Assembly (NCBI RefSeq): GCF_019649055.1
Contig: NW_026570273.1
Coordinates: forward strand, 186,001-250,000
Length of the DNA: 64,000 bases
From: Paramacrobiotus metropolitanus
Taxonomy: Eukaryota; Tardigrada; Eutardigrada; Parachela; Macrobiotidae
Direction of reading: 5' to 3'
Below are positions 51,736 through 54,281 of the stretch, in pieces; position 1 is the first letter of the stretch, and every line of letters starts with the position of its first letter. Under the pieces are notes generated by a model. It was not told where the DNA came from. It was given only the letters and a program-made list of their open reading frames with translations, and searched no databases. The position numbers and the translations under genes are program-made.

Positions 51736-54281
51736 TTAGTCTGGTTGGTGACCGGCTGGACTCGGGGGCACTGCTGCCCAAGTCGGAAGCTCCGTCTCCG
51801 TGTTTTCATACCGCGATTCGTCGACAATCTCATCGAGAAGATCCTGGTGCGCCACGTTAAACTGCTGGTAGGGCTCGTCCAGGGCGAGATAATTCAGGAC
51901 ATAGTCTCGTCCCGCCACTCCGGTCAGCTGCTGCTCCAAATGGCTGAAAACCGGTCGGTCGTCCGGCTGTGGGCGCCAGCATTGCACCATAATGTCATAT
52001 CTGTGCCACACAATAGCGAGGTCAGTTTAGGACGTTGGATTAATGGAGTTCCCAAAGATCACTTACATTACGGAGGGGCAGGCCGGAGACCGCTCCATGT
52101 GGACGCCCTGCAACAGCCTGGCAAGAAATTCCGTGACGTAGCCAATGCCCAGAGCGGAGCTACCGTAAGGCGTCTCGCCAAGACTGAAGAGTTCCCACAT
52201 CAGCACGCCGAAAGACCATACATCCGACTTTTGCGAAAACGTCCGCTGCCGAATGGACTCGGGTGCCATCCAGCGCACCGGCAGCGCCACCTTTAATAAT
52301 CTTACTTACTTCTCGTCAAGGATCGTTGACCTGGTGTCCCTTACCTGTTCGTTGAGGAGAACGTACTCCGACAGTTGTCGTGCCATCCCGAAATCAGCAA
52401 TTTTGACCACATCGTTGTGGCAGACCAGAACGTTGCGGGCGGCCAGATCGCGGTGGATAATGGAGCGGCTGTTAAGGTAGGTCATGCCGCGGCTGACTTG
52501 AAAGGCGAAGCTAATTAGATCCCGGGTCGACATTACTTTCCGGTCGAACTCCTCGTTCTGGGCAGCCGTCGGCGGGGTCTGGTTGGCTGCCTGCTGCAGG
52601 CGGCTGACTTCCGCTGCGCTGTAGACTTGCATCTGGCCGTCAGTGTCCGTCTGATTATAGAAATATGCACCGTGGTGGCAGCGGAGATACGTGAGCAGAG
52701 ATCCGTGCCTCGAATATTCCAGCAGCAGGTACGCTTCGCCTGCGCAGTAAAAAATTGATAGAATTTTTATTTATGTTTCCATGGCGAGTATGTGCAGCTG
52801 GTTTTATTGCGCTCATGATTCACAATTAATTTTGGTACAAGAGCACCACGCTCTCGCGTGAAGCTTCCTGGCGAATAACTGCTGCTGTTACGCTGTACCT
52901 TTGAAGACCGCCCCAAGGAGGTTGATGATATTGAGATGGCGGCCAGCGCGGGTCATGATCTTCATTTCCTGGATAATTTGCCGGTTTTGCTCCACATCAG
53001 TCCGGTCACGCACCATCTTAACTGCCACCGCGGTAGGCATCGGCTGACCCCGCAGACCGGTGGCCACGCCCTTGCGGACGATGCCGTACTCTCCCATTCC
53101 CAGTACGGCCCCTAACATAATTACATATTTAGGAAAATTAAATGAGTTCAAAATAAATAAAAAATAAAATATGGTTGCGGCCTACCCATCTCGATGTTGG
53201 CCAATGGAATCTCTAGCAAGTCAACGTAATGCTGGATGGCTGAATCTACACGATCTTGGCCCGAGTCAATAAGATACGTCAAGTAAGGCGAGCGGGTAGT
53301 CAAGAGAGTGGAGTCGGTGTTGGTGGCCGAGCCTTTACGCATGTCGCCAATCCGCAGTCGGTATTTCCGATACAGGAAACCGAAAAGAATGCCGACGATG
53401 CTAATTCCCAGGACTCCCGCCAGACTCCCAAGAACGATGGCCAACACCGGCGCTCCCGAAGCTGGCTCTCGGTTCCCACTGGAGACGTTGACCCAACGGG
53501 ACACGTCGATATGGCCCTGGCGCACCACCACGTAGTCGATTAGGAACTCGGTGGGGAAGGGGGTGTTATTGTCGGGGCTGCCAGGGAAGGTGCCTCCAAT
53601 GGCCACATTCATTACCACTTGCAACGCCTCCGTGGGTACCTTCTCGGCGCCCACCACGGTGAAGACTAGCACCCCGTCGACGAACCACAGCAGCGCCTCT
53701 TCCGTCCAGATTAATTTATATAGGTGGAAGTCCTTGGACAGGTTCTGCTTCATGTCCGTCGGCTTCCCGGGCCAGAGGACCTGGGTGCCGTTCCAGTAGA
53801 AAACCGTAGTTGCGACGATATTGGGCTCATCGCCGCGGACGTCCATGACAGTGATGGCTGGTGGCCAGTGATCATGGCACTGAACTGCGGGGGCGCACAG
53901 GGGGTGCTCCAGCCACAGTACCGACCACACGCCGCGCCCTGCTGGGATTCGGGCACGCCACTCAACCTCGCCGCGTAGGAAGCTGAACTTGCCCGCGGTA
54001 TCCACCCTCCCCGAAGTGTAGCGGCAGCCGCCGAACTCCTCCCGCCTACTAACAAGGCGCAGGCTCCCGTTGCTAACACGGACATTGTCTGGTCGGTAAT
54101 ACTCCAGTTCCTCGTTAACGTAGGACTTGGTGTCGGCCGCGTTCCATCGGCTGGTGTTCAGCTTGATTCCGACAAAGTCGTCGTGGAATACCTCCTGCAG
54201 AGTAGTCTCTGGACCCCTGACTGTGGTGGCCGCCAGGACAACACCCACTCCGTACCAACACAGGATGACGATCAACAACAT
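51736..54281 (-). CDS. Receptor tyrosine kinase with GH16-like ectodomain
   Basis: Five exons: 54281-53186, 53111-52899, 52739-52345, 52290-52067 and 52000-51736, all GT-AG, total 2193 bp, 730 aa. ATG 54281 gives a signal peptide ([17 protein letters not shown]). Residues ~30-255 are a GH16 (laminarinase/beta-glucan-recognition) fold: FHDDF...[27 protein letters not shown]-type core, [41 protein letters not shown]. The catalytic ExDxxE is AITVMD here, so both Glu and the Asp are replaced: no hydrolase activity expected. Several sequons follow, then one helix at ~277-303 and stop-transfer YRKYR. The kinase is complete: GMGEYG loop, AVK (K397), EMKIM helix, ~45-residue insert, HRDLAARN (D534), DFG (D552), [29 protein letters not shown]. 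The tail has YENT, a Grb2-SH2-type site. Kinase-insert and motif pattern resemble the FGFR/PDGFR class. A glycan-sensing role is inferred. Confidence 0.88.

Follow-up and report, generated by a model that had tools for sequence, protein, structure and literature searches.

The window, a stretch of 64,000 nucleotides of Paramacrobiotus metropolitanus DNA, contained one gene on the minus strand at positions 51736-54281. In the spliced model, this gene comprised five exons, encoded a protein of 730 aa and ended with a TAA at 51736. The four introns were 74, 159, 54 and 66 nt long, and each had GT-AG borders and was in phase. The sequence-only reading had described such a chain, with a signal peptide, a GH16-like domain, one transmembrane (TM) helix and a tyrosine kinase with every catalytic motif. 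The rebuilt minus-strand model gave the same five-exon chain, with GT-AG borders, in-phase joins and 730 aa, and the domains were confirmed by Pfam, PDB comparison and hydropathy. All of the kinase catalytic motifs were also found, including K397, E414, D534, N539 and D552. The features are given below; an intron was counted as common to a paralogue when it had the same phase and a position within 2 residues, among the models that spanned it.

51736-54281, minus strand: predicted gene of a receptor tyrosine kinase with a GH16 ectodomain, from start to stop codon, 730 aa (spliced model; Pfam)
53186-54281, minus strand: exon 1, with signal peptide, GH16, TM, juxtamembrane stretch and first kinase residues; residues 1-365 (single open frame)
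54231-54281, minus strand: signal peptide, about residues 1-17 (hydropathy; cleavage site approximate)
53517-54191, minus strand: GH16 domain of the laminarinase type, residues 31-255 (PF00722, E 9.6e-15; best PDB E 4e-29, one match from residue 31)
53841-53858, minus strand: former catalytic box, residues 142-147, AITVMD replacing ExDxxE (alignment to laminarinases and to the paralogue with EIDVME)
53370-53450, minus strand: TM helix, about residues 278-304 (hydropathy, maximum 2.48 over 19 residues)
53112-53185, minus strand: intron 1, 74 nt, phase 1 (position and phase common to 20 of 21 paralogues)
52899-53111, minus strand: exon 2, with P-loop GMGEYG, K397 and helix-C E414 (spliced model; paralogue comparison)
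52740-52898, minus strand: intron 2, 159 nt, phase 1 (position and phase common to 19 of 21 paralogues)
52345-52739, minus strand: exon 3, with kinase insert, HRDLAARN (D534, N539) and DFG (D552) (spliced model; paralogue comparison)
52291-52344, minus strand: intron 3, 54 nt, phase 0 (position and phase common to 19 of 20 spanning paralogues)
52067-52290, minus strand: exon 4, with RWMAPES and C-lobe (spliced model; paralogue comparison)
52001-52066, minus strand: intron 4, 66 nt, phase 2 (position and phase common to 16 of 18 spanning paralogues)
51736-52000, minus strand: exon 5, with the end of the C-lobe and the C-terminal tail (spliced model)
51925-53195, minus strand: tyrosine kinase domain, residues 363-668, split by introns (PF07714, E 5.8e-80; PDB)
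51856-51891, minus strand: tail motif starting at Y680 (YLAL) (the same stretch in paralogue L005 aligns to the FGFR1 tail YLDLSMPLDQY)

Exon 1 was free of stops from the signal peptide to the IPLANIEMG of the kinase. Because a single exon joins the signal peptide to the start of the kinase, two separate genes are very unlikely, which agrees with the earlier assignment of both domains to a single gene. Chance was excluded, since 21 modelled paralogues had the domains in the same order, with the kinase motifs and most of the introns in place. The protein had the features of a receptor tyrosine kinase (RTK), namely a signal peptide and a single TM helix by hydropathy and a complete set of tyrosine kinase motifs, and the spliced model showed no visible lesion. 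Thus the GH16-TM-tyrosine kinase architecture is almost certain, and the gene probably encodes a real and functional RTK with a GH16 pseudoenzyme as ectodomain. Elsewhere in the window, positions 48967-50031 on the plus strand held a hydrophobic ORF of 354 residues, which by eye looked like a multi-pass chemoreceptor and had no Pfam match.

GH16 ectodomain and tyrosine kinase

In the Pfam search, Glyco_hydro_16 matched residues 62-240 (E 9.6e-15), and in the PDB comparison residues 49-254 matched the GH16 laminarinases 4dfs and 3azx (E 4e-29). Apart from GH16 and kinase models, the window protein matched only SKN1/KRE6 in Pfam, and this match overlapped GH16. The assignment of the GH16 fold rests on these sequence profiles, because the AlphaFold prediction of the ectodomain alone, made without an alignment, reached a mean pLDDT of only 35.8. 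The ExDxxE box is required for GH16 catalysis. In the alignment to laminarinases, all three catalytic acids were changed (E142A, D144T, and E147D), so that EIDIME became AITVMD, the box that had been read from the sequence at the outset. Among the 20 kinase-bearing paralogues that covered the box, the nucleophile and the middle Asp were kept in none, and the acid/base Glu was kept in one (L005).

An intact box, EIDVME, was found in one paralogue, L013. When this locus was extended upstream (L049; G000:C25:1201205-1202305), it comprised a signal peptide, judged by eye, and a two-exon GH16 domain (Pfam E 7.3e-28) with a stop directly after the domain. The rebuilt model contained no TM helix and no kinase, and GH16 ran straight to the stop. 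This paralogue is probably an active glucanase that looks secreted. The ExDxxE box was also absent in nine of the ten GH16 stretches without a modelled kinase, and the dead GH16 fold is therefore not unique to the receptors. At L009 and G000:C96:55000-76700, several GH16 pieces lay in a row, their boxes altered, and no kinase was found nearby; these are perhaps soluble or decoy relatives.

The residues W119, W123, and W139 of the window gene corresponded to the three tryptophans that flank the intact box of L013. All three were kept in 6 of the 20 mapped receptor paralogues (L001-L005 and L020), and at least one was lost in the other 14. Glycan binding therefore need not be general in the family, and the ligand may be a different one in many relatives. 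The retained tryptophans fit a lectin-like cleft in the subclade of the window member, with perhaps other ligands elsewhere.

The kinase domain (PK_Tyr_Ser-Thr, residues 363-668, E 5.8e-80 in Pfam) had VEGFR1, PDGFRA, FLT3, and FGFR as its best PDB relatives, and it scored higher with VEGFR1 and PDGFRA than with FGFR. An EGFR chain that topped the PDB kinase lists was set aside, since it contains the kinase twice and its score is the sum of both. When the C-lobe and tail of the window protein were compared with PDB chains, ALK, FGFR4, and PDGFRA scored about equally, so that descent from FGFR is only a candidate; the C-lobe and tail of L005, with the doubled EGFR chain left aside, aligned best to FGFR1/2 through YLDL. 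In FGFR, the tail tyrosine of YLDL is the docking site of PLC-gamma. The leading tail tyrosine, at the position of Y680, was present in all 18 of the 21 paralogue models that reached the tail. Further along the tail, Y707 in YENT fits a Grb2-type YxN site. The catalytic K, E, D, N, and D of the kinase were kept in all 21 modelled paralogues, and the Arg of HRD was kept in 20 of them.

The gene family in the genome

The genome searched comprised 169.8 Mb. The PF00722 scan gave 40 GH16 matches, and 172 kinase matches were reported, many of which adjoined GH16 matches. The GH16 matches, except that of the window itself, were covered by 31 stretches cut from the genome, and the window protein was aligned to each stretch with a purpose-written spliced aligner, which reproduced the window model itself up to the stop codon. 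GH16, TM helix, and kinase followed in this order in 21 of the 31 stretches; no kinase was modelled in the other ten, among which L025 was cut at the end of its stretch.

With the window GH16 as the query, 102 matches were obtained in the genome, and together with four extra matches they formed 67 GH16 clusters, weak matches with E up to 0.0099 being included. The pairing count took 150 of 166 kinase matches and three more, two of which formed the pair at C130:115094. Among the matches listed, 48 of the 67 GH16 clusters were followed within 6 kb by a kinase on the same strand. These pairs involved 45 distinct kinase clusters, since three of the 48 shared their kinase with a nearer GH16 cluster. 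As controls, a same-strand kinase upstream was found for 10 of the 67 clusters and an opposite-strand kinase for 18, again among the matches listed; tandem arrays can account for these pairs. There was no kinase within 6 kb downstream of 19 of the 67 clusters among the matches listed, yet for one of them (C7:2097427, which is L018) a kinase was modelled by spliced alignment. The earlier reading had implied that the gene stands alone, and this did not hold: the genome contained about 45 such loci among the matches listed.

Fifteen further kinase stretches were picked for the absence of an adjoining GH16 in the PF00722 scan. The spliced search found GH16 in four of them (L033, L041, L045, and L046; scores 76-401), and none in the other 11, which scored at most 58, where shuffled DNA reached a maximum of 53. 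In L051, a stretch taken at a GH16 match, the GH16 score was 184. An array on both strands at G000:C98:172000-240000 held ten weak GH16 clusters paired with nine kinase clusters. At L024, L025, and L026 (C25), L003 (C154), and C144, at least two GH16 domains lay in tandem upstream of one kinase, and these loci may carry double ectodomains unless the domains belong to separate genes.

The distances in the GH16 and kinase trees were correlated (r 0.914, n=18), and none of 2000 permutations gave a value as high, the highest being 0.585. This comparison included 18 of 22 genes; L006, L010, L029, and L031 were dropped for their short GH16 stretches. In the kinase tree, which is indicative only as branch support was not read, the GH16-bearing genes formed one group, which included the astacin gene L042, and the MAM-like and PGRP-bearing genes stood apart from them.

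The dN/dS between the window gene and L003 was 0.18 for GH16 and 0.12 for the kinase. Of 15 hand-chosen pairs, 14 could be scored, and their ratios ranged from 0.04 to 0.45 and were below 0.5 in both halves; they are rough values because synonymous differences were high in many pairs. GH16 had the higher ratio in 9 of the 14 scorable pairs, with no clear sign of an arms race. At the level of sequence, both halves of the gene were thus shown to be inherited jointly and to be under purifying selection. A few copies appeared damaged or badly modelled: L026 had a stop in helix C, L002 had a disrupted P-loop, and L014 read HCD.

Possible function and rival explanations

Compared with the RTKs of the FGFR/PDGFR/VEGFR class, the window protein shared the kinase insert, all of the catalytic motifs and the best PDB scores (VEGFR1, PDGFRA, FLT3, and FGFR), but it had GH16 in place of the immunoglobulin ectodomain; Pfam gave no match to an Ig domain at E 0.001. 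It resembled the GH16 laminarinases 3azx and 4dfs over residues 49-254 (E 4e-29) and differed from them in AITVMD, which replaces ExDxxE. On sequence grounds, an active GH16 hydrolase was rejected as an identity: the profile was matched, but A142, T144, and D147 break the predicted catalytic box. The insect beta-1,3-glucan recognition proteins (GNBP/bGRP) also have a GH16 domain without catalytic residues. However, GNBPs are secreted and act via protease cascades and Toll, whereas the window protein is anchored in the membrane and carries a kinase. Pfam at E 0.001 gave no match to an N-terminal domain of the CBM39 type, and about 13 residues lay between the signal peptide and GH16. The TM helix, the kinase and the lack of a CBM39-type domain ruled out a GNBP/bGRP by architecture.

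Plant lectin receptor-like kinases and CHRK1, a TM kinase with a chitinase-like ectodomain, are Ser/Thr kinases of another kinase branch, and both are analogous, not homologous, to the GH16-RTKs. The likeness is that a TM kinase bears an ectodomain of the lectin type (the lectin receptor-like kinases; excerpts of PMC5485988) or of the hydrolase type (CHRK1). Venus kinase receptors are similar in being invertebrate RTKs with a borrowed small-ligand-binding fold (excerpts of PMC3703292 and PMC4026697); they differ in combining a Venus-flytrap ectodomain with an insulin-receptor-like kinase. There was no Pfam match to a Venus-flytrap ectodomain in the window protein.

Here, we propose that the family may have originated when a laminarinase-type GH16 domain was joined to a kinase of the FGFR/PDGFR/VEGFR type. 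The GH16 cleft with its retained box-side tryptophans would form a lectin-like polysaccharide site, for which a ligand of the beta-1,3-glucan type would be the first candidate. A multivalent ligand would bring receptors together, and the clustered kinases would phosphorylate each other in trans. The phosphotyrosines of the tail, Y680 (YLAL) and Y707 (YENT), might then serve as docking sites for SH2 proteins, for instance PLC-gamma and Grb2; the counterpart of Y680 in a paralogue lines up with the FGFR tail tyrosine. We consider the chances of this glycan-sensing mechanism to be evenly balanced, and the explanation as a whole, a family of functional RTKs in which a dead GH16 acts as a lectin-like polysaccharide sensor, could equally well prove right or wrong.

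A different explanation, to which we give a serious but less than even chance, is that the GH16 fold is only a scaffold, that it binds another receptor or a growth factor of protein nature, and that the role is developmental. The domain was kept though its catalytic residues were lost, and at least one box-side tryptophan was lost in 14 of the 20 mapped paralogues, which suits a scaffold; so does the fact that the ligands of RTKs are usually proteins. A small-ligand fold has been put to new use in the Venus kinase receptors as well, according to the excerpts of PMC3703292 and PMC4026697. It is harder to explain by a scaffold why the window member, L001-L005, and L020 all kept the three tryptophans of the intact paralogue. 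Tens of diverging, arrayed loci are also unusual for developmental RTKs, and here about 45 diverging loci, some of them arrayed, were found among the matches listed. The suggestion that GH16 is still an enzyme, which would cleave a glycan by some other mechanism and thereby release a signal, could draw on the same retention of the domain and, in the window member, of the box-side tryptophans; it is scarcely credible, as GH16 catalysis needs ExDxxE, and of the 20 paralogues covering the box none kept the nucleophile or the middle Asp and one alone kept the acid/base Glu.

Two further explanations question the gene itself. The kinase lies mostly in other exons than GH16 and the model was built from DNA alone, as would be expected if two adjacent genes (GH16-TM and kinase) had been wrongly joined or the prediction were an artefact. 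But the stop-free exon 1 reaches from the signal peptide to IPLANIEMG, the introns are common to the paralogues, GH16 and kinase are paired in excess, their trees are correlated, and the kinase exons alone would be without signal peptide or TM helix, so that such an error is highly improbable. Decay after a burst of duplication, by which the window gene and many relatives would be pseudogenes, would account for the stop in L026, the disrupted P-loop in L002 and the 19 of 67 GH16 clusters for which no kinase followed within 6 kb (among the matches listed, and including L018 with its modelled kinase). It is very hard to reconcile with dN/dS below 0.5 in both halves of all 14 scorable pairs, intact catalytic residues in the kinases of all 21 paralogues and a window gene free of visible lesions, and we hold it to be very unlikely.

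Under the proposed polysaccharide sensor, the expansion and divergence of the ectodomain are more in keeping with variable cues from outside (microbes or food) than with a single, constant ligand in development, and we infer that the GH16-RTKs may have an immune role. To our knowledge, the RTKs of animals use only a few types of ectodomain. No description of an architecture combining GH16 with a receptor tyrosine kinase was found in the open-licence literature searched, among the matches listed, and within that scope the first impression of an undescribed architecture was upheld. The same literature, among the matches listed, yielded none for tardigrade tyrosine kinases, glycosyl hydrolases or glucan, for choanoflagellate RTKs with lectins or for PGRP with RTK. 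The terms 'GH16' and 'receptor tyrosine kinase' co-occurred there, among the matches listed, only in one paper, on EphB6 in pituitary tumours. An RTK family of about 45 loci with a dead polysaccharide-hydrolase ectodomain would be the equivalent, in an animal, of the lectin receptor kinases of plants.

Other ectodomains and a possible recognition repertoire

At L036 (G000:C63:784500-789000), two exons matching PGRP (PDB E 7.7e-7 and 7.1e-6) were located upstream of a TM-like ORF and a tyrosine kinase. The Amidase_2 match was below the cut-off (23.5 vs 26 bits), and the first exon had no Pfam match. The splice between the two exons, read from the DNA, restored DIFYNFLIGYDG, which we take to be the usual wording of PGRPs. 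On visual inspection, the locus seemed to have lost the catalytic region that PGRP amidases carry at the C terminus. The Amidase_2 scan of the genome gave one match elsewhere (C25:1013080, E 2.7e-4), and the L036 domain was not among its matches. L036 is thus a putative second receptor type, an RTK with a PGRP-like ectodomain.

At L042 (G000:C89:26400-30800, minus strand), an astacin domain (E 1.9e-13 and 7.5e-7) was found upstream of a kinase of the GH16-receptor clade. The zinc motif of astacins is HExxHxxGFxHE; the corresponding site in L042 read RELMHVLGFYNE, and the canonical motif was absent. This locus is a putative RTK with an astacin ectodomain that lacks the canonical zinc motif.

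The about 45 dead-GH16 RTK loci, together with at least one putative PGRP RTK (L036) and a putative astacin RTK (L042), might form a repertoire for innate recognition, in which polymers from microbes or food would be converted directly into tyrosine phosphorylation; this is a tentative suggestion that we consider rather unlikely. In the excerpted text of PMC7056985, GNBP1/3 and PGRP-SA/SD are given as not detected in tardigrades, and the canonical antimicrobial NF-kB pathways of D. melanogaster are reported as lacking. One Rel-homology match was present in the genome, and for this reason no loss of NF-kB or Toll signalling is claimed here. The GH16-RTKs would be a candidate answer to how microbes are sensed in an animal reported to be without the usual insect recognition proteins. 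If true, a tardigrade whose RTKs bear GNBP-like and PGRP ectodomains would possess a striking alternative.

Genes of the RTK type were also observed at L039, L043, and L035, where the upstream ORFs looked MAM-like by eye and the kinases formed a separate clade; the Pfam match of L039 was below the cut-off (E 0.0024), and the ORF of L035 had no Pfam match. In a search for SAHS-type proteins of tardigrades, one lipocalin family gave two matches and a second family gave one, at the site of the first; by eye, these resembled ordinary FABPs. The astacin peptidases gave 164 matches across the genome in the PF01400 scan, which represents a large expansion.
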